NCBI GenBank assembly: GCA_025612375.1
Contig: JAAXKN010000030.1
Coordinates: 1-57,356 of the forward strand
Reading direction: 5' to 3'
DNA: 57,356 nucleotides
Source of the DNA: Ignavibacteria bacterium
Lineage (GTDB): Bacteria; Bacteroidota; Ignavibacteria; Ignavibacteriales; SURF-24
Positions within the stretch are counted from its first letter, which is position 1, and every line of letters starts with the position of its first letter. Position numbers and translations under genes: made by a program. Below, piece by piece: positions 13,091 to 57,356 of the stretch. The notes below the pieces were generated by a model. That model saw only the letters and a program-made list of their open reading frames with translations, searched no databases and was not told the DNA's origin.

Positions 13091-13164
13091 TGGGTTCTAG
13101 AGGAGTCGAACCTCTGACCTTCTGCACGTCAAGCAGACGCTCTAACCAACTGAGCTAAGAACCC
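13091..13164 (-). tRNA. tRNA-Val (GAC)
   Basis: 74 nt cloverleaf. The acceptor GGGTTCT pairs with AGAACCC, with discriminator A. The anticodon loop is TTGACGT inside the TCTGC/GCAGA stem, giving anticodon GAC. The T-loop is normal (TTCGACT). CCA is not encoded. No promoter is seen in the 63 nt before it, so it is likely cotranscribed with tRNA-Leu. Confidence 0.96.
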
Positions 13165-13227: not shown

Positions 13228-13313
13228 TACCGAGGGCCGGAGTCGAACCGGCACGGGTATAAATACCCACAGGATTTTAAGTCCTGTGCGTCTACCAATT
13301 CCGCCACCCCGGC
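13228..13313 (-). tRNA. tRNA-Leu (TAA)
   Basis: 86 nt class II tRNA with a long variable arm (GGGTATTTATACCC). The anticodon loop CTTAAAA inside CAGGA/TCCTG gives anticodon TAA. The acceptor GCCGGGG pairs with CCTCGGT using two G-T wobbles. The promoter at 13332-13363 is directly upstream. Confidence 0.96.
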
Positions 13314-13498: not shown

Positions 13499-16400
13499 TT
13501 ACTTGAGAAATATCATCTTTTTTACTTCTGTAAATTTCCTCCCCTTCCCGTTTAACGGATCGGCTTCAATGGAATAGAAGTAGATTCCAGAGGAAACTCC
13601 TACAGGTGACCATCTCACCTCATGATATCCGGCTTCAAAGACCTTATCAGCGAGCAGACAGATACTCCGCCCCAGTAAATTGATTATCCTTACCCTTACA
13701 TATGACTCTGCGGGAAGTGCAAAGCTTATGGACGTGGAAGGATTAAACGGGTTCGGGTAGTTCTGCCCCAGCTCAAATTTCACGGGCAGAAGGTTTTTCC
13801 TATCCGTAACTGCTGTTTTTTCAACACACCTGCCCTGGAGCAGCACCTGATTGCCGGAATCAACTTTGCTTACAATATAAAGCGTATCAGAGAAACTGCC
13901 AAGGGAATCGGGCTTGAAAGTCACTGTAACAACCGCAGAGTCGTACCTTGCCAGATAAGTCTTACTGATGGAGACAGAAAATATTTTATTTTTAACGTAT
14001 ATACTGTCGACAGTAAACGGGTTTAGGCCGGTATTTTTAATAGTAATTTTGTTTGAGACTGATTTTAATGGTTCTGTATCAGGAAGCTTAAGCACCTGAG
14101 ATGAAAGGCTGTAGCTGTTCTGACGCACATTAAGCAGCCAGCCTACAGTGCCTGAAGCCTCATTTACATATGCAATATCCACTGCCCCGTCGCCGTTAAA
14201 ATCGCCAGAGGTCATACGGTTTGAGCCGGATTCACTGGCAAAGTAGCCTGAGACCTTAAAGGCCATATGCTGGTTTGTATAAATATACCCCTGGTTCGAA
14301 TACCCGTTATTTACAGAAGCCAGATCAATATCCCCGTCACTGTCATAATCGCTGCCCGTAAGCGAGAGAGGGTCTGCACCCGTCTGCTGGTCAGACAAAA
14401 AGAATTGCAGTCCGCCCAAATTTTTAATTAAACAGAGCGAATTTATATAGGGCTGCCCGGATGCCAGATCAAGCCAGGTATCGTGGTTCATATCGGCAAG
14501 TACCATCGACCTGATGTAGGGAGTGCCCGGGTTCCGGCCTTTAGCCTTAAAACTCATATTGCCCGTGTTTTCAAAAATGCAAAGCGGATCACCGGCATAT
14601 TTGCTAATAACAATGTCAATATCGCCATCGTTATCCATATCCCCTGTTTTTAAGTCAAGCACCTGCTCAAGAGTTGATGGCAGCATGATTGCCCGGAAAG
14701 TAAAATTGCCCTGATTTTCGAGCACATAAGCGGTGTTAAGAAGATCATTTGTAACTATCAGATCAAGGTCCCCATCGCCATCCAGATCATCGGAAGCAAG
14801 CATCCGGTTATTCTGCCCACTGAAGACCGATACTTTAGTAAAATTAAAGCCGCCTTCATTCTTTAGAATGATCACTGAATTCCTGCAGGCTGCAGCAATG
14901 TCTGTTTTCCCGTCGTTATTGAAATCTCCGGCAGTAATGCCGAATGGAGAATCGGTCAGTGCTATGGACTTTGCAAGTCCAGGTTTGGAATCAAGGCTCC
15001 CTTTTATTACAGCTATTCCGTTTTCAAATGAAACAATCATATCCGTAACACCATCATTTTCCAGATCAGACGAACAGATAAGTTTGGGATATTGGCCTGT
15101 AGGAATATTATTCATCGCCCTGAAAGAGCCCGTTCCCTCTTTAGCCTTAACAATAAATCGCCAGATGAAGGGAGAAAGAACCGGATTAAGCGACTTCAGT
15201 TTGAAATCATTTTTTAATGTGATTTCAACTTCCTCACCAGTGATAAATTTACCTTCGGGAACAATTGAAAGAAGCCTTTTTGCAGCATCATATGAAACTC
15301 TTGAATTATGGAAACCGCTCATGGAGCCAGATATAAAAACTGAAGAAGGAGTAAGCGACTCAGGAATGATGTCCTCCGTAAAACGGACCGCGGCAAAAGA
15401 AGGATCGGCCGAAGCTGAATTCTGCGCCGGGTATAATGAATCCACAATAACCTGCCTGCACATGCCAGTAACCATGAATTTAACGGCCGGATGCACCTTA
15501 TCATTGCTTGTAATTACTACACTGTCGGAATAAGCCTTTGTTTCCATGGGAGTGAAAGTTACCGTTACAGATTTCGCTTTCCTCGGTTCAACGGTTAAGG
15601 AAGTGGGAAACAGGCTGAAGGCTTTTGAACTGCAGTAAATAGAATCTACAACCAGAGGCAGCGATCCCGGGTTGCTTATGGTAAAAGAAAATGTTTTCGA
15701 GCTGTCTTTTTGCACGCTGCCGAAATTATATTCCGTAGGGCTGAGAGCTATTTCGCTAAAGTGATCCCGGTTTTCAAGAAAAGTGAGTGGGGAATTCATT
15801 TTATATGCCAGAAGATCGATATCCCCGTCATTGTCAAAATCTGCTGTCAGCAGGTTTGAGGCTTCAAAATTAAATGGAGGCAGAACAAGCTGCTTAACGA
15901 CTTTAAGGTCCTTATTACACTTATCCATTTCAACTCCCCAGCTGGCCGCAGAAAGAAACTCCACAGTTGAATCGCCGTCAAAATCGCATCCTGCAAGGAA
16001 TGACATGTCCTTTTGCGGGGGATTATAATAGCTGGTTGTAAACTTCAAATCGCCATTATTTACCAGTATTTCATAACCTTTATAGCCCTGCCAGTACGAT
16101 GCCGCGGCGAAATCGATTAGCCCGTCATTATTAAAATCTCCTCTTACCGAAGGCAAAGTATTGAGTAATTGATTATTGAATGTCTGAAATGAAAAGTTGC
16201 CGTTGTTGCGCAGCAGGAAACCGGTATAAATGTCAGCCAGTATATCCAGATCGCCGTCGCCGTCGATATCCTCTGAAGCTAGACCGAAAATGCCCGCAAA
16301 TTTGATTTTTGAGGCCTTGAAAATAAAATTCCCCATGTTCTTTACAAATTCCATCTCAGCGCCCGAACTTCCTGTGCCGACGGCAAGATCAGTCAGGCCG

Positions 16401-18946
16401 TCGTTGTCATAATCTCCGGCCGTTATATATTGAAGATAGCCCGGAACATCTGTCTCAGAGGAAGTAAAATTAAAATTGCCTGTATTTTTCAGCAGCTGAA
16501 TTTTTGAAGCTACTTTGCATACGGCAATATCAACTCTGCCGTCGTTATCAAAGTCGGCTGCGGCCAATGATTGCGGACCCTGTGGAATACTGATGGATTT
16601 TACTTTTGTAAACCTGAAGTCTCCTTCATTTTTATAAATTGTTATTTCCTCATTAGTCTGTGTAAGGACAGCAACATCCAAAAGCCCGTCATTATTAAAA
16701 TCTGCGGTGACCGGCTTAAATGAGTACTGAGGGAGCTGAATTGAAGAGCGTTCACGGAAACTCATCGAAGAACTCTTTGCCGAGACATTAAAATCCCATA
16801 TGCGCGGAAGGAAAGGAGGCTCACATGCAACCGTCCTGATCTTAGAAGTCAAAGATACAGTTACATTTTCTCCCCTCCTGAATGGTTTTGCTGTTTTAAT
16901 GGTTAGAAGCTTTAATCCGTCATCAAAAGATATAAGTTCAGCTTTCTGCCTGCCAGAGTGCGAACCCGTAATAACGATCGAAGAGTCGGAAAGTGTTGCA
17001 GCATCCAGCCTCACATTGAAGTAAATCCTTATCTGTGCAGTATCAGAAGCAAATATTGAAAGAGGCTTAGGATAACACGAGAGCACCTGCTCTCCCCTTC
17101 CCAAGACATAAAATTTTACTTCAGGATGGAATTTATCGTTGCTGTAAACTGTCAGACTGTCGTTGTAGCTTAAAGCGCCCGACTGCTTAAAGTGAATTGT
17201 AACTTTCGCCGTGTCGCCGGCAGCAATAGTTGTTTTTGAAGCCGTAGCTGTAAAGGCCTCATTTGATGAAGCAATGCCTGAAATGTTCAGGGTCCCGGAT
17301 ACGCCGTCATTTTTAACTACAAAGTAAGCTGACTTTTCGGCTCCCGGTTTTGTTACGCCAAAATCGTATGAACTGCTAAGAAGCTTAACCTCAGGTTCCG
17401 CGTTTTTATTTTTTGCAATGACGAGATTTCTTGGATTTCCAGACTCCATGTAAAGATCAATATCACCGTCGTTATCCAGATCTGCCGCTCCAATATCCCC
17501 GATAGCCCTTGCACCGGAAAAGACCTTAGACTCAGTAAATGAAAGATTTGAGTTATTCTTCAGGATATATAAATAATCAGAAGAATGGATTGCAATATCA
17601 GGATAAGTGTCATTATTAAAATCGCCTACTGTGCAGCTTCCGTTGGAGATATAGCTGACTGCAGGAACAGTTTTCTTGAAATTCCCTGTACTGTCGTTTA
17701 TTAGTATTGATAAATAATCATAACCGTATCCGCCTGAGGCAAGAATATCAGGATATCCGTCGTGATTAAAGTCTGCAACATTTATCTGCGAGGTCAAAAA
17801 ACTCTGTGGATATACCACGGGAGCTGAAAAGTTAAAGGAACGGGAATTCCTGAATACACAGACCGATTTTTCCTCATTTAAAGCATCAATTATGTCAGGA
17901 TATCCATCCAGATCAATATCGGAGAAAATGATTTTCTGAGCATTAGTAACCGGGAGCTCCTTTGCAAGCTGAAACCTCATATTGCCCATATTCCGGAACA
18001 GCAGCAGTACGTCCTGGCCGTTAAACCCGGTATTTGAACAAATTGAAATGTCCAGCTTTCCGTCTGCATCCAAATCGGCAGCATAGAATCCGCCACCTAA
18101 ATAAGCTGAACAGGTAATTTCAGCAGCGGTCTGAAAACTGCCGTCGGGCATCTGTTTTAAGATAACGACCAGCTTTTCGCCTTCAGGCTGGAAGGCAATA
18201 TCAACTTTTCCGTCGCCGTCAAAATCTCCTGTTGTAATATTGTCCACAGGTTTTCCCAGATAAATATCCTGCCTGGAGAATTTAAGTCCGCCAAGATTCT
18301 TCATCATAAAGATCCCCTGGTACATAAAGCTTGAACAAAGGACGTCAACTAATCCGTCATTATTCATATCAGCCAGGATTGATGGTCCGTATTCATCTCC
18401 GAAAGGGACCGGTTCGGAGAGTGCAAATGTTCCTGAACCTGAAATAGGGCTCGCCGTAAACGTCCAATTAAAGGGCTGCACTGCCTCGTTCTGAAGGGTT
18501 TTTACTCCTGGAGTAAGTGATACTGAAATCAGTTCATTCGGATGAAACCTCCTTTCGGGTAAAAAAACTATGGATTGGCTGGCGTCGTCATATTTTACTG
18601 TTCCTGATACTTTTCCGTAAAATGAGCTGAAAACGGCAATAAAGGAATCCTTTACTGTACTATTATCCAACGGTTTTACAAAAGAAATGGTTATGGAAAG
18701 AGAATCAGGTATCTTAAAATCCGCGGAACCCGGGTAGTAGGATTTAATTAATGGGTTAACTCCGGTAATTGAGGAGTTATAACCCCCTGCCTGGTTTGGA
18801 AAATTTATTCCAGGCAGAGAGCTAGAAAAGTCCGACCGGACTAAAGCAGATTCAGTGAGCAAAGATTTTTGATTTAGCTGATAATTCCCGCAAAAAATGA
18901 AAGGAGAATTAAGGATTAAGAGTAAAAGAGTGCAAATATGTCTCAA
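13499..18946 (-). CDS. Giant T9SS-exported protein with three Big5/FG-GAP/HYDIN-like modules
   Basis: 1815 aa, starting at TTG 18946 behind an AGAAGGA site. After a signal peptide the protein is built from three similar modules of about 550 aa. Each has a Big_5-type Ig-like domain (for example FVKPLDNSTVKDSFIAVF), then a run of FG-GAP/VCBS repeats with calcium-type loops (DMNNDGLVD, DFDGDGKVD, DLDADGKLD), then a HYDIN/DUF1573-like Ig domain (SYDFGVTKPGAEKS; EYNFGSVQKDSSKT). A T9SS sorting domain ends the protein (LGQNYPNPFNPSTSISF ... KKMIFLK). It is predicted to be a cell-surface or secreted beta-propeller protein. The ligand is unknown. Confidence 0.92.
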   Translation of the reverse strand: MRHICTLLLLILNSPFIFCGNYQLNQKSLLTESALVRSDFSSSLPGINFPNQAGGYNSSITGVNPLIKSYYPGSADFKIPDSLSITISFVKPLDNSTVKDSFIAVFSSFYGKVSGTVKYDDASQSIVFLPERRFHPNELISVSLTPGVKTLQNEAVQPFNWTFTASPISGSGTFALSEPVPFGDEYGPSILADMNNDGLVDVLCSSFMYQGIFMMKNLGGLKFSRQDIYLGKPVDNITTGDFDGDGKVDIAFQPEGEKLVVILKQMPDGSFQTAAEITCSAYLGGGFYAADLDADGKLDISICSNTGFNGQDVLLLFRNMGNMRFQLAKELPVTNAQKIIFSDIDLDGYPDIIDALNEEKSVCVFRNSRSFNFSAPVVYPQSFLTSQINVADFNHDGYPDILASGGYGYDYLSILINDSTGNFKKTVPAVSYISNGSCTVGDFNNDTYPDIAIHSSDYLYILKNNSNLSFTESKVFSGARAIGDIGAADLDNDGDIDLYMESGNPRNLVIAKNKNAEPEVKLLSSSYDFGVTKPGAEKSAYFVVKNDGVSGTLNISGIASSNEAFTATASKTTIAAGDTAKVTIHFKQSGALSYNDSLTVYSNDKFHPEVKFYVLGRGEQVLSCYPKPLSIFASDTAQIRIYFNVRLDAATLSDSSIVITGSHSGRQKAELISFDDGLKLLTIKTAKPFRRGENVTVSLTSKIRTVACEPPFLPRIWDFNVSAKSSSMSFRERSSIQLPQYSFKPVTADFNNDGLLDVAVLTQTNEEITIYKNEGDFRFTKVKSISIPQGPQSLAAADFDNDGRVDIAVCKVASKIQLLKNTGNFNFTSSETDVPGYLQYITAGDYDNDGLTDLAVGTGSSGAEMEFVKNMGNFIFKASKIKFAGIFGLASEDIDGDGDLDILADIYTGFLLRNNGNFSFQTFNNQLLNTLPSVRGDFNNDGLIDFAAASYWQGYKGYEILVNNGDLKFTTSYYNPPQKDMSFLAGCDFDGDSTVEFLSAASWGVEMDKCNKDLKVVKQLVLPPFNFEASNLLTADFDNDGDIDLLAYKMNSPLTFLENRDHFSEIALSPTEYNFGSVQKDSSKTFSFTISNPGSLPLVVDSIYCSSKAFSLFPTSLTVEPRKAKSVTVTFTPMETKAYSDSVVITSNDKVHPAVKFMVTGMCRQVIVDSLYPAQNSASADPSFAAVRFTEDIIPESLTPSSVFISGSMSGFHNSRVSYDAAKRLLSIVPEGKFITGEEVEITLKNDFKLKSLNPVLSPFIWRFIVKAKEGTGSFRAMNNIPTGQYPKLICSSDLENDGVTDMIVSFENGIAVIKGSLDSKPGLAKSIALTDSPFGITAGDFNNDGKTDIAAACRNSVIILKNEGGFNFTKVSVFSGQNNRMLASDDLDGDGDLDLIVTNDLLNTAYVLENQGNFTFRAIMLPSTLEQVLDLKTGDMDNDGDIDIVISKYAGDPLCIFENTGNMSFKAKGRNPGTPYIRSMVLADMNHDTWLDLASGQPYINSLCLIKNLGGLQFFLSDQQTGADPLSLTGSDYDSDGDIDLASVNNGYSNQGYIYTNQHMAFKVSGYFASESGSNRMTSGDFNGDGAVDIAYVNEASGTVGWLLNVRQNSYSLSSQVLKLPDTEPLKSVSNKITIKNTGLNPFTVDSIYVKNKIFSVSISKTYLARYDSAVVTVTFKPDSLGSFSDTLYIVSKVDSGNQVLLQGRCVEKTAVTDRKNLLPVKFELGQNYPNPFNPSTSISFALPAESYVRVRIINLLGRSICLLADKVFEAGYHEVRWSPVGVSSGIYFYSIEADPLNGKGRKFTEVKKMIFLK

Positions 18947-19171: not shown

Positions 19172-19245
19172 GGGCCCATAGCTCAGTTGGTTAGAGCATC
19201 TGACTCATAATCAGAGGGTCGGTGGTTCAAGCCCATCTGGGCCCA
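19172..19245 (+). tRNA. tRNA with CAT anticodon (Met or lysidine-type Ile)
   Basis: 74 nt cloverleaf. The acceptor GGGCCCA pairs with TGGGCCC, discriminator A. The anticodon loop is CTCATAA in the stem TCTGA/TCAGA. It is not the initiator type, because the acceptor ends are fully paired. I cannot decide between elongator Met and Ile2 (CAU modified to lysidine) by eye. CCA is not encoded. Confidence 0.93.
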
Positions 19246-29477: not shown

Positions 29478-29489
29478 AGCTGTTTTACT

Positions 29490-30872
29490 TCATTTCATCA
29501 GAAGGAACTTTTGGGCAGCGGTAAAATCCCCTGCTTCAAGCCTGTATATGTAAATTCCACTTGGAAGGCTGCCTGCGTCAAACTTTACGCTGTAGCTTCC
29601 GGCAGGCTTATATTCATCCACAATTACCGCGGCTATTTTCCCCAGAACATCAAAAACCGTAAGTTTCACATTCCCCTCTTTCTTCAGGGAGTAATTTATT
29701 GTTGTTGACGGGTTGAACGGATTGGGATAGTTCTGCGACAGGCTGTAATCATTTACAGCTACCGGAGCGCTTTCGACTCCGACAATGGGCGTTTCATACT
29801 CTACACTTACAACAGAACCGCCTACCGGCAGAATTTCCTTTTTCCCGCTATAGCCGGTATAACGGAATTCCATGGAAGTTGCATAAGGCACCCATTTACC
29901 AGAGGTATCCCGCTTAAAAGATTCACCTTTAACGGCATTGCCGTCGGTATCATTGGTATATAAGTGTTTGATTGAGGCAGTCCAGACTCCGTCTCCCCAT
30001 TGTTCTTTAAGCTCACCAACTAAATACCCCTTTTGGTCATAAGTATATGTCAGCCTCGATTTATTGGTCCATGCACCGTTCAGCCATTGTTCTTCAAGAC
30101 TTGTAATCAGGCTGCCGTTATTATAAGAATACGTCACCCGGGTGAGATTTTCCCATGCGCTGCCGTTCCACGTCTCCCTCAGGAAGGTGAGCATGCTGCT
30201 GAGGCCGTCGTAAGTGTATGTTTCATTGAAACTGTTCGTCCATGCGTTATTGGCCCAGACTTCAGACAAGTTGGTAAGCATATTCCCTTTGCTGTCGTAT
30301 GTATAAGTTTCTCTGGAATTATTTGTCCAGCCGCTGAATGAGGCCGATTCCACAAGCATAACTGTAAGATTTCCGCTGGCGTCGTATGTATAAGTTGTTC
30401 TTGTACCCGGGATATAATAGCCGGCCATTTGATTTTCCATAACGGCTGTCAGCAGCTTCCCATTAGAATCATACGTAAAAGCGGCTTTGTAAGTACTGGT
30501 GACCGAACCGTCGTTTGAATATGTCTTACCAATATATGTAAGCATATTGCCTTTGCTGTCGTAGGTCATGCTGTCAAAGCCGCTGGTAACCCATTTACCG
30601 TTATACAGTTTTTCATAAAGTCTTGAGATAAGGTTAGAGAAAAAATCGTAAGAATAGGTATCTTTTTCAGTAGAATCCACTATAATACGGGAAGGCCTGT
30701 ATATAGCAGAATACAAACCGGGGTCAGCGACGGATTTATTCAGCTTTCCACCGTTCAGCTGTTCAGGATACAGAAGCAGATTCCGGCCTATAAGTCCGGA
30801 TTCCTTAGTCTGAGGATAGGACTGGACAAATGCCAGGACGAGCAAAAGGACAGAGATTAAAGATTTCTTCAT
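29490..30872 (-). CDS. T9SS-exported protein with YD-like repeats
   Basis: 460 aa from ATG 30872, which follows GGAGGG and opens with a signal peptide (ends FVQSYP-QTK). The middle (about 90-340) consists of about seven repeats of roughly 35 aa with the pattern TYTYDSKGNMLT ... W, similar to the YD repeats of Rhs/wall-associated proteins. A T9SS sorting domain closes the protein (LSQNYPNPFNPSTTINYSL ... KFLLMK). It is expected on the cell surface; the repeats suggest carbohydrate or surface binding, but no enzyme domain is present. Confidence 0.87.
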   Translation of the reverse strand: MKKSLISVLLLVLAFVQSYPQTKESGLIGRNLLLYPEQLNGGKLNKSVADPGLYSAIYRPSRIIVDSTEKDTYSYDFFSNLISRLYEKLYNGKWVTSGFDSMTYDSKGNMLTYIGKTYSNDGSVTSTYKAAFTYDSNGKLLTAVMENQMAGYYIPGTRTTYTYDASGNLTVMLVESASFSGWTNNSRETYTYDSKGNMLTNLSEVWANNAWTNSFNETYTYDGLSSMLTFLRETWNGSAWENLTRVTYSYNNGSLITSLEEQWLNGAWTNKSRLTYTYDQKGYLVGELKEQWGDGVWTASIKHLYTNDTDGNAVKGESFKRDTSGKWVPYATSMEFRYTGYSGKKEILPVGGSVVSVEYETPIVGVESAPVAVNDYSLSQNYPNPFNPSTTINYSLKKEGNVKLTVFDVLGKIAAVIVDEYKPAGSYSVKFDAGSLPSGIYIYRLEAGDFTAAQKFLLMK

Positions 30873-34135: not shown

Positions 34136-34396
34136 ATATTTCCAAAAAGTTAAACGTATTTGGGTATTATCGAGAAAGAAGAAATTTTGTTGATAGTCCG
34201 GAGGCTTCTTTTTAAAGTTTTTCCGGATAAATATGGTGTTTTCCGGAATAAAAACCAGAAGATAAAAAATGAATGAGCGGGAGCGGGCAATTTCAGCAGG
34301 TAATATATATGCCGTAGGAAACTCTCCCAAGTCCGGGCTAAGGCTGAAAAGGCCTGAACCCGGATAAAGAAGAGAGAACTTTTAACGCTGAACTTT

Positions 34397-35779
34397 TTAC
34401 TTCATCAGGATGAATTTTTTTGCAGAAGTAAACTCCCCTGCCTCAAGCCTGTAGATGTACATTCCGCCCGGAAGGCTTGTTCCGTCAAACCTTACTGAGT
34501 AGTTTCCTGCGGGCTTAAATTCATTTACAACAACGGCTACTCTTTTTCCAAGGGCATCAAAAACCGTAAGCCTTACATTTCCCTCTTTCATTAAGGAAAA
34601 GTTTATTGTTGTTGAAGGGTTGAACGGGTTCGGATAGTTCTGCGACAAAATGTAATCCCCGGGCACGGCATTATCGGGAGATGGGACCACAGAAACCACA
34701 TTGCTCCTGAGCAGAAAATCGCCCACAGTCTTAAGAAGAGGGTTCGCCTTAGAAGTAGCGTTATAGCTCTGTGCAATTTTCCAAATAATTGTGCCTGCAA
34801 GCCCCTTTGAATTAATATAGTCGCATTTCATTCTGGTCGAGGTGGTATCATCAAATGAAATCACCTGCGTGTGCGCAGTGTTGCGCAGGTAAGGGGTTTT
34901 CGTATTATTGTCGAAGGTATACTGCCAGCCGGTATTATTCAGGTAGCTTGATACAATAGTGTTATAGCTTAATGCTTTGGCGCCTGAAGTAGTTGTAATA
35001 CTTCCGTACATTTCAGGCGCATTCATCAGGTATCCGTAGAACGGCATGCCTGCGCACACCTTGGATTTTGACATGCCGCCTGCTATCCAGGCATTTACGC
35101 TCTTATCGATGGAATATGTCTGCTGGCTTGTGCTGTAAAGGGCGGAATTATTTATAAGCCTTGTACCTGCCTGTTCCCAGTTGCCGGTAAAATCATAGGT
35201 CATTATTCCAATCCAGTCAAGCAGTGTGTTCAGTTTGGGCACGTCGTATCCGGCGCTCGGCGAGTTATAAACTGCCGCGGTCATAAGAGGGATATTGTTT
35301 GCGTTGAAGGCCGCTCTTAAGTCCGTAAGGAGTGTGACAAAGTTTGCCTTGTCGCCGCTGGCAGGATACTCCCAGTCGAAGTCTGCCCCGTCGTAATTAT
35401 TAGCTTTAATAAAATTGACAAGGTTCGTAATAAATGCAGCTCTGGCTGTCGCGCTGTTCACCATGGTCTTAAATCCGGTATTCTGAGCAGAAGTGCCGTA
35501 TCCGCCGATCGATACCAGAACCTTGACGCCGTTGTTGTGGGCTGCTGTTATCATGTCAGGATAAAGAGCCAGCTGGCTCTGATCCAGGCTTCCATCGGCC
35601 AAAGGCCATAAGAACGCGTGACAGATGTGTGTCAGGCTGGTAAAATCAATTGCGGTCGAGGGATAAGAAGAATTATCCCAGTTATAATAGCCAATAACCC
35701 TCTTATTATTCAGGTTCTGTGAGAAGAGGTTTTGAACCATAAGAAGTATGAGGACAGATGAAGTAAGAAATTTTTTCAT
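34397..35779 (-). CDS. Secreted chitinase-like GH18 glycosidase with T9SS sorting domain
   Basis: 460 aa. Signal peptide ends MVQNLFS-QNL. The GH18 barrel shows VLVSIGGYG and the catalytic motif DGADFDWE (Asp130 to Glu137, with Glu137 as the acid), plus IGIMTYDFTG and a final-strand KGLAGTIIWKIAQ. A T9SS domain ends the protein (LSQNYPNPFNPSTTINFSL ... KKFILMK). The enzyme should hydrolyse chitin or related beta-1,4-N-acetylglucosamine polymers outside the cell, and PorU may anchor it there. Confidence 0.93.
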   Translation of the reverse strand: MKKFLTSSVLILLMVQNLFSQNLNNKRVIGYYNWDNSSYPSTAIDFTSLTHICHAFLWPLADGSLDQSQLALYPDMITAAHNNGVKVLVSIGGYGTSAQNTGFKTMVNSATARAAFITNLVNFIKANNYDGADFDWEYPASGDKANFVTLLTDLRAAFNANNIPLMTAAVYNSPSAGYDVPKLNTLLDWIGIMTYDFTGNWEQAGTRLINNSALYSTSQQTYSIDKSVNAWIAGGMSKSKVCAGMPFYGYLMNAPEMYGSITTTSGAKALSYNTIVSSYLNNTGWQYTFDNNTKTPYLRNTAHTQVISFDDTTSTRMKCDYINSKGLAGTIIWKIAQSYNATSKANPLLKTVGDFLLRSNVVSVVPSPDNAVPGDYILSQNYPNPFNPSTTINFSLMKEGNVRLTVFDALGKRVAVVVNEFKPAGNYSVRFDGTSLPGGMYIYRLEAGEFTSAKKFILMK

Positions 35780-46724: not shown

Positions 46725-46798
46725 TAGCGCGTACCGGATTCGAACCGGTGATCTCTGCCTTGAGAGGGCAGCGTCCTAAGCCACTAGACGAACGCGCC
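46725..46798 (-). tRNA. tRNA-Glu (CTC)
   Basis: 74 nt cloverleaf. The acceptor GGCGCGT pairs with ACGCGCT, discriminator A. The anticodon loop CTCTCAA in the stem CTGCC/GGCAG gives anticodon CTC. T-loop TTCGAAT. CCA is not encoded. A promoter lies upstream at 46820-46851. Confidence 0.95.
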
Positions 46799-56421: not shown

Positions 56422-56614
56422 AGGCCACAAATGGATAAAATGTGATGTAATATTAGGAAATATTTTCAAAAGGATCACTTTAAGAAAACAAGAGCATTCA
56501 GAATAACGCAATCACTAAGTCATCCTTCGGATGACGAGACATTTGTAGCCCAGGGTGCAGGAGTCCCTGGAAGGGACGACAAACCCCGGGTTAAATAATC
56601 CCCCACCACACACC

Positions 56615-56634
56615 AGCCCCGGTCAGGGGCGGCA
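56615..56634 (+). repeat. Left inverted repeat core of the REP-like element
   Basis: AGCCCCGGTCAGGGGCGGCA. It contains its own hairpin (GCCCC-GGTCA-GGGGC) and is repeated exactly in inverse orientation at 57307-57326. Confidence 0.88.
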
Positions 56635-56719
56635 TATGAAATTGTGCCATGCTTCACATCCAGACATTCCCTTCAGGAGTAAATTTAATCATATCCAAAC
56701 AGCCCCAGACAGGTTTATT

Positions 56720-57199
56720 ATGCCGGACACATACACACAGCTCTACATCCACGTGGTATTTGCAGTCTCATCAAGACAGGCTCTGATAAAGCCGCATTTT
56801 TCATCCGAGATCCAGAGGTACATTACAGGAATTGTAAAGAACAAGGGATCAAGATTGCTCGCCATAAAAGCCATGCCGGATCACGTGCACATACTTTTGG
56901 CACTGGATCCAAAGACTTCCATTTCAGATCTCATGAGGGAAGTTAAGGCAAGTTCATCAGGGTTCATGAAGAAGAAGTTTAATTTAAGCCTCTTTTCCTG
57001 GCAGTCGGGCTATGGAGCATTCTCATATTCAAAAAGCCAGATTGACAGCGTCATAAAATACATACTGAATCAGGAGGAGCATCACAGGCAGAAGTCATTC
57101 AAGGAAGAATACATGAAGATACTCGTGGATTTCGGAGTGGAGTATGACGAAAAGTACCTATTCCACTGGATTTATGAAGAAGAGGATGCATCTGATTAA
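56720..57199 (+). CDS. tnpA: IS200/REP-associated Y1 transposase
   Basis: 159 aa from ATG 56720 (MPDTYTQLYIHVVFAVSSRQ); the frame can be extended upstream to a TTG at 56555, but that stretch is the left end of the element. HUH motif HVH at His55-His57 (MPDHVHILL), catalytic Tyr114 in VIKYILNQEEHH. The end KSFKEEYMKILVDFGVEYDE matches the common short Y1 proteins. It cuts and joins single-stranded DNA at hairpins. No tnpB is present. Confidence 0.95.
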   Translation: MPDTYTQLYIHVVFAVSSRQALIKPHFSSEIQRYITGIVKNKGSRLLAIKAMPDHVHILLALDPKTSISDLMREVKASSSGFMKKKFNLSLFSWQSGYGAFSYSKSQIDSVIKYILNQEEHHRQKSFKEEYMKILVDFGVEYDEKYLFHWIYEEEDASD

Positions 57200-57227
57200 G
57201 GCATTATCGTTTCAGAATTTGAGAATC

Positions 57228-57294
57228 CCACGAATTTGCCGGATATCCACGAATATGCCGAATATCTACGAATATGTGAGATATTCACGAATTC
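57228..57294. repeat. 19-nt tandem repeat, about 3.5 copies
   Basis: Units start at 57228 (CCACGAATTTGCCGGATAT), 57247 (CCACGAATATGCCGAATAT), 57266 (CTACGAATATGTGAGATAT) and 57285 (TCACGAATTC, partial). The shared core is CACGAATnTGC. They lie between the transposase stop codon and the right end of the element. There are no spacers, so this is not a CRISPR array. Confidence 0.85.
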
Positions 57295-57306
57295 TAGGCG
57301 CTTATG

Positions 57307-57326
57307 TGCCGCCCCTGACCGGGGCT
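57307..57326 (-). repeat. Right inverted repeat core of the REP-like element
   Basis: TGCCGCCCCTGACCGGGGCT, the exact inverse of 56615-56634. The inverted similarity continues outward to the window edge. Confidence 0.88.
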
Positions 57327-57356
57327 TGGGGTTTTTTTTGATTATGGCACCCGGGG

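Follow-up and report, generated by a model that had tools for sequence, protein, structure and literature searches.

The domestication of bacterial transposases has one of its leading examples in REPs and their Y1 partners. In REPtrons, inverted hairpins frame a RAYT (TnpAREP) gene of class 2, dispersed hairpins and inverted doublets occur elsewhere, a GTAG tetranucleotide accompanies the hairpin and the type of hairpin tracks the type of transposase. PMC6006769 assigns the Y1 partners of REPs that it describes to class 2 or a small class 3, and more than 100 copies are usual for REPs (PMC2817692). In TIRtrons, a Y1 gene lies between long inverted repeats; the composite ends of P. putida and P. 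fluorescens combine a degenerate GTAG REP with an unrelated stem-loop (Di Nocera et al., 2013; PMC3733652). Members of the IS200/IS605 family are described as having no terminal inverted repeats (PMC2817692). Within IS200 subclass 1.1, copies share a mean identity of 99.4% (PMC6006769 Table 1). Subclass 1.2 is defined in the same table by the motifs Y---Q--HH, DH[IV]H and WQ, and its REP column reads 'no' (Quentin et al., 2018; PMC6006769). Its members are described there as generally free of typical IS200 end structures, with a mean copy number of 1.7 and a mean identity of 36.2%. An open-access literature search found no paper tying subclass 1.2 to REPs.

Here, a Y1 transposase unit from an Ignavibacteria bacterium is described. 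The window analysed is the entire contig C30 (57,356 nucleotides) of a 5.23 Mb genome in 140 contigs. The unit is likely to represent a REP-type partnership in which the driving enzyme is an IS200-like Y1 transposase of subclass 1.2; inverted multi-hairpin ends and dispersed copies set it apart from the published description of that subclass.

The transposase unit at the contig end

In this unit, a low-copy transposase gene lies between inverted ends made of several hairpins (H3-GTAG-H2-spacer-H1). The features are listed below, with the strand where one applies and the basis of each in brackets.

56492..56519, no strand: outermost motif of the left end, GAGCATTCAGAATAACGCAATCACTAAG (by-eye comparison with other type-A ends)
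56519..56535, no strand: H3, outer hairpin GTCATCC-TTC-GGATGAC (fold)
56545..56548, plus strand: GTAG tetranucleotide in the H3-H2 interval (sequence, end alignment)
56547..56590, plus strand: H2, nested hairpin AGCCCAGGGT...ACCCCGGG (pattern search; one of 30 genome copies)
56612..56637, minus strand: left H1, inner type-A hairpin containing the 20-mer (inverted arms, type-A alignment and model)
56720..57199, plus strand: Y1 (HUH) transposase gene, 159 aa (open reading frame, PF01797)
57228..57292, plus strand: 19-nt tandem repeat, three to four copies, between gene and right hairpin (repeat search)
57304..57329, plus strand: right H1, inverted copy of the left H1 (inverted arms, type-A alignment and model)
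57350..57356, minus strand: first 7 bases of the right-hand H2 (end alignment, comparison with H2)
57302..57356, no strand: contig-end overlap of 55 nt, identical to C54:1-55 on the reverse strand (sequence identity)

An earlier reading of this DNA, made from the sequence only, had placed the Y1 transposase between exact 20-bp inverted repeats, and this was borne out. The exact 20-mer AGCCCCGGTCAGGGGCGGCA lies at 56615-56634 and its complement at 57307-57326, within 23-nt inverted arms (56615-56637 and 57304-57326) that are 96% complementary. When a 19-mer from the 20-mer was searched with at most three mismatches, two matches were found in the window and none in any of 100 shuffles. The ends can be aligned over about 60 bp and are imperfect beyond the exact core. 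Imperfect ends had been described, at about 50 bp, in a unit spanning 56585-57356; the ends were recovered and the bounds were not. On the left the unit extends outward through H2, GTAG and H3 to about 56492 (limit set by eye), so that the order from outside to inside is H3, GTAG, H2, H1. The right end is incomplete, as the contig runs only to 57356, about 7 nt inside H2. The ends of C30 and C54 converge on the same 55 bases; the assembly broke at the repeat. The position of H3 is kept in other type-A ends, with differing paired stems. By eye, likenesses to the outermost motif lie outside C5:110591, the left end of C91, C16:87451 and C32:27646, and none was seen outside C5:109738.

The same reading had the 20-mer fold as a hairpin. 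It can form a 5-bp stem with a 5-nt loop, but single copies folded no better than shuffles, whether taken as the lone hairpin at 57300-57330 (z -0.9) or as the two ends of 53-55 nt folded singly (z -0.03 and -0.12). The left end with all three hairpins (56503-56637) reached z -2.26, and 6 of 200 shuffles were equally good. The hairpins are supported mainly by paired stem changes among members of the family, such as the type-A variants GCCCC/GGGGC and GCTCC/GGAGC, and by those of types B and H2.

The open reading frame at 56720-57199 matches PF01797 (E 1.4e-26). With 75.7 bits, the protein clears the cut-off of the NCBIfam IS200 model (55), whereas its 32.5 bits against REP_Tyr_transpos (NF047646) are under the cut-off of 80. 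Its motifs are the HuH pair H55/H57 (DHVH), W94-Q95, Y114, Q118 and H121/H122, the last three within YILNQEEHH. In an alignment of 30 proteins, H55, H57, W94, Y114, Q118 and H122 are invariant, and the Y---NP signature of RAYT is absent from the window protein and all 30 aligned, which carry Y---Q. The protein is extended at its C terminus, and a specific, conserved domain at the C terminus is among the published features of subclass 1.2. With a mean pLDDT of 85.6, the predicted fold is of the HUH/Y kind, and its best matches in the PDB are the TnpA proteins of ISDra2 and IS608, in agreement with sequence profiles; the REP-associated structure 4er8 was matched at E 7e-6. Judged by its sequence, the protein is an IS200-like TnpA of subclass 1.2, with Y---Q--HH, DH[IV]H and WQ all present, and is not a RAYT/TnpAREP. 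It further shares with that subclass a length of about 150 aa and the lack of a second gene, as none appears between the ends in the list of open reading frames, and perhaps also the divergence of copies within a genome. The claim that the unit is REP-type and not a normal IS200 thus holds for the REPtron-like layout of inverted hairpins and fails for the protein. The WQ pair also occurs in subclasses 2.4 to 2.7, whereas subclass 1.1 has W[TS] (PMC6006769 Table 1). W94-Q95 resembles residues discussed in that paper for contact with GTAG, and the role of W94 is called unclear there. The shared WQ may be a weak hint of GTAG recognition; it is weak because subclass 2.2, which includes the E. coli enzyme, has WE (PMC6006769 Table 1).

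Hairpin families and Y1 genes of the genome

The sequence-only reading had proposed that further copies of the hairpin would make up a REP family, and the genome count agreed with it. A 15-mer core is present at three sites genome-wide: the two window ends and C54:32-46. A search of contig C54 for Y1 genes found none, and the core is thus not confined to this site or to copies with a transposase. The orientation of the C54 copy puts the would-be gene side on the contig, where the sequence is unrelated, and the copy has its own unique inner flank. By eye, it lies just past a terminator-like stem. The exact 20-mer is rare (three sites); the larger families consist of its structural relatives and of H2, type-B and type-C hairpins.

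Eight of the ten sites of the type-A hairpin went into a covariance model; the two others are C54 and C45. With this model, each of the ten scores E<1e-4. Y1 genes are adjacent to five of them (two on C30, two on C5 and one on C91) and to none of the other five (two on C16, C5:113285, C45 and C54); the C45 site is 127 nt from the contig start. Seven weak extra sites have E values of 0.02-0.66. The C16 sites form an inverted type-A pair, as do C5:113285 and the weak site C5:113487 (E 0.16). Each pair surrounds tandem repeats of 23-24 nt and holds no gene.

The genome has eight Y1 genes of the same kind (nine rows, since C91 is split into two frames), compared with the mean of 1.7 for subclass 1.2. 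They are mutually 43-96% identical, against the subclass mean of 36.2%. The closest pair is 96% identical and the gene closest to that of the window 64%. The hairpins differ between the clades that these genes form:

Clade A (C30, C5, C91): ATGTGYCGCYCC-loop-GGRGC
Clade B (two genes on C16): ACAAGTCG(stem)TCC(stem)CTC, in arrays
C17 and C26: AAACCRCG-YGGTTT
C8: stems ACCAC/GTGGT and ATCCGC/GCGGAT (within TATCCGC/GCGGATA)

H2 has 30 copies in the genome, against none for a reversed control pattern; 10 of the 30 are at most 300 bp from a Y1 gene and 20 are away. At the varying outer pair, 24 copies have A-T, 4 have G-C and 2 a mismatch (n=30; Fisher p 0.0005). The window copy, with an A.C mismatch in its outer stem, is one of these two. 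The inner stem has at least 5 bp in 27 of 30 copies, in 15 kinds (shuffled mean 2.2, maximum 7). GTAG directly precedes H2 in 29 copies, the exception being C28 with ATAG, and it does not precede H1. The type-C hairpin has 26 copies and none in the control, with 6 near a Y1 gene and 20 away. For type B, a loose pattern gave 44 matches and 30 in the reversed control, a raw count that proves nothing. The stems were used instead: three unconstrained pairs are all complementary in 37 of the 44 matches, with 8 stem sequences, and 10 of these 37 lie beside the two C16 genes. Hairpins also occur as tandem arrays and as H2-H3 singlets without the remainder of the element. Three gene-less units of 283-285 bp (C14, C15 and C38) are alike from H3 to H3 and, by eye, show no clear likeness outside. 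On C91, a clade A Y1 gene with a frameshift (C91:306-775, locus L032) still has paired H2 hairpins on both sides.

The hairpin type follows the transposase clade in two species. In a tree with genes of the sister species G001, whose hairpins were compared by eye and with blastn, the G001 C26 gene groups with the two C16 genes of the present genome (100/99) and type-B hairpins are common to both. The G001 C22b gene groups with C8 (99/95) and has the same two kinds of stem. The G001 C22a gene groups with C5 and C91 (99/95); it has a type-A H1 at its left end only and the same H2 at both ends. The place of the window gene in clade A is less supported (93/75). The H2 pattern is confined to the genus, with 30 copies in this genome, 7 in G001 and none in the other 37 of 39 genomes. 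No orthologous site was found in G001, where five stretches with Y1 loci share no flank with the window.

The unit can be compared with the described systems. Inverted hairpins framing a Y1 gene, dispersed hairpins, inverted doublets, the presence of a GTAG tetranucleotide and the match between hairpin and transposase types are all shared with RAYT and REPtrons. The differences are in the protein, in the composite three-hairpin ends and in the GTAG, which abuts H2 and not the inner H1. Hairpin numbers of 10 to 37 per type are below those usual for REPs. With TIRtrons and other composite ends, the unit shares a Y1 gene between long inverted repeats (PMC3733652). The TIRtron transposases are relatives of RAYT, unlike the protein described here, and 20 of 26 belong to subclass 2.1 (PMC6006769).

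Subclass 1.2 relatives and the Acido-Lenti-1 family

How widespread are such units? A Y1 match of any subclass was found in 33 of 39 genomes of the order, the present one included. Named genomes, when scanned, yielded 76 loci, most of them from Bacteroidota, with others from Ignavibacteriota, Planctomycetota, Acidobacteriota, Verrucomicrobiota and further groups. Together with 29 loci from relatives in the order, 84 of 105 carry Y---Q--HH. Nine of the 84 have short flanks, and the remaining 75, not all of them independent, were used in a flank test. Inverted repeats in the flanks exceed the 99th percentile of shuffles at 58 of the 75 loci and do not reach this threshold at 17. Against a stricter cross-locus null, 37 of 75 exceed the 99th percentile (29.4) and 4 the maximum (94.9); the long tail of this null probably comes from related loci. 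A perfect stem of at least 5 bp is present in the arms of 54 of the 58, an uncontrolled count in which several arms are AT-rich and not clearly REP-like. Of 75 upstream flanks, 13 contain a hairpin followed by GTAG (mean 0.5 and maximum 2 in shuffles), and control motifs in the same test reached up to 5 upstream and 10 downstream.

An Rfam search of 62 loci from relatives found Acido-Lenti-1 (RF01687) above the gathering cut-off in two of them, L140 and L148. The matches surround the Y1 gene of L140 (Acidobacteria), one of whose flanks contains a run of N, and lie once beside that of L148 (Planctomycetes):

L140, 1172-1217, minus strand: RF01687
L140, 1439-1484, plus strand: RF01687
L140, 1970-2015, minus strand: RF01687
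L140, 2070-2115, plus strand: RF01687
L148, 2000-2044, plus strand: RF01687

In this family, an H2-like stem is followed by CTAC or CTAT, a gap of about 8 nt and an H3-like stem. This is the order of the window end when read on the opposite strand (H2-CTAC-H3). In one Acidobacteria genome and some Planctomycetes genomes, the H2-CTAC-H3 part of such ends is RF01687. The nearness of the motif to group II introns has been noted. PMC2864571 (Table 1) puts RF01687 forward as a probable structured RNA, and in 2026 it was still listed as an ncRNA of which 'little is known' (PMC13298647). What these two sources say under the RF01687 name contained no tie to a transposase.

Whole genomes were searched with RF01687 for ten hand-picked loci outside Bacteroidota and for 14 controls. 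Among the matches listed, 8 of the 10 genomes had a match at E<=0.01 and 6 of the 10 were over the cut-off; of the controls, 1 of 14 had a match and 0 of 14 were over the cut-off. A listed match lies at most 600 bp away in 8 of 23 Y1 rows, against 0.12 expected under uniform placement; a 24th row, in a 1300-aa frame, was left out. Without the two discovery genes (L140 and L148), the numbers are 6 of 21 rows against 0.08 expected. In the L140 genome, 66 of the 74 matches listed (84 in total) are away from Y1 genes. Close neighbours among the matches listed there are in opposite orientation in 22 cases and in the same orientation in 3. No match to RF01687 is present in the window, nor at E values as high as 1 in any of 18 loci from the present genome, so that the link between the two consists of architecture and transposase subclass. 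Near another relative, in Arenibacter, a Flavo-1 RNA (RF01705; L134:2414-2488) lies about 460 bp downstream of the Y1 gene.

Alternative explanations and further features of the window

The unit could instead be an ordinary insertion sequence of the IS200/IS605 type with MITE-like deletion derivatives, the hairpins being its subterminal ends. The protein would fit, since the IS200 model is passed and TnpA of ISDra2 and IS608 are the best structural matches, and the gene-less units do look MITE-like. This explanation is nevertheless already weakened and is considered unlikely. The ends are inverted, with exact 20-bp hairpins and about 60 bp of inverted sequence, where known members lack terminal inverted repeats (PMC2817692). 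A gene whose closest copy is 64% identical also contrasts with the near-identical full copies of subclass 1.1 (PMC6006769), and both the tandem hairpin arrays and the H2-H3 singlets stand against it. An origin of the hairpins as host elements, such as terminators, mRNA ends or structured RNAs, among which transposases have landed, is still less probable. For many REPs, transcription is plausible and a role as RNA possible (PMC3733652), the proposal of RF01687 as an RNA points the same way and the C54 copy follows a terminator-like stem; the inverted symmetry round the genes, the clade-specific hairpins common to two species and the gene-less units that end at H3 speak against it. It is very improbable that short overlaps of contig ends created the extra copies as artefacts of assembly. 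The third exact copy is indeed inside the C30/C54 overlap and the C45 copy is close to a contig start, but the unique inner flank of the C54 copy and the position of most H2, B and C copies well inside contigs argue against it.

How might a REP-type partnership with a subclass 1.2 transposase operate? By analogy with models of TnpAREP and IS608 (PMC8266576), a Y1 dimer would most likely recognise one strand of the ends, probably the lagging-strand template, as single-stranded hairpins. Tyr114 would then cut this single strand near the foot of a hairpin, with GTAG as a guide. By moving or copying the ends in trans, the transposase could spread hairpin singlets and gene-less inverted pairs, while the gene would stay low-copy and drift along with its own type of hairpin. 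The unit may thus be mobile, and the host may have put the repeats to use.

On a larger scale, we lean, with some reserve, towards the view that REP systems arose more than once. Subclass 1.2 would drive a REP-type world of its own, with distinct multi-hairpin ends, in Bacteroidota, Ignavibacteriota, Planctomycetota, Acidobacteriota and Verrucomicrobiota, and Acido-Lenti-1 would be its H2-CTAC-H3 DNA end and not an RNA gene. Should subclass 1.2 also run REP families, either the partnership has an independent origin in IS200-like enzymes or it predates class 2. The step from insertion sequence to REP system would become testable within one protein subclass, short hairpin repeats in Bacteroidota and related phyla would be explained and a catalogued RNA family would be reclassified.

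Several minor observations were made along the way. Gene-less type-A pairs at L031:14210-14323 and L029:7350-7401 enclose tandem repeats of 23-24 nt, and the window element has a 19-nt array. Kinship of such tandem repeats in gene-less type-A units with the BrickBuilt MITE of P. gingivalis was rejected, since the BrickBuilt ends match insertion sequences of the IS5 family (PMC4596501). Elsewhere in the window, an 1815-aa frame at 13499-18946 on the minus strand contains 13 imperfect 38-nt repeats, many of them at intervals close to multiples of 140-150 nt. Positions 29489-29750 and 34396-34657, 4.9 kb apart, form a 262-nt direct repeat with 79% identity. Four tRNA genes are located at 13091-13164 (minus strand), 13228-13313 (minus), 19172-19245 (plus) and 46725-46798 (minus).
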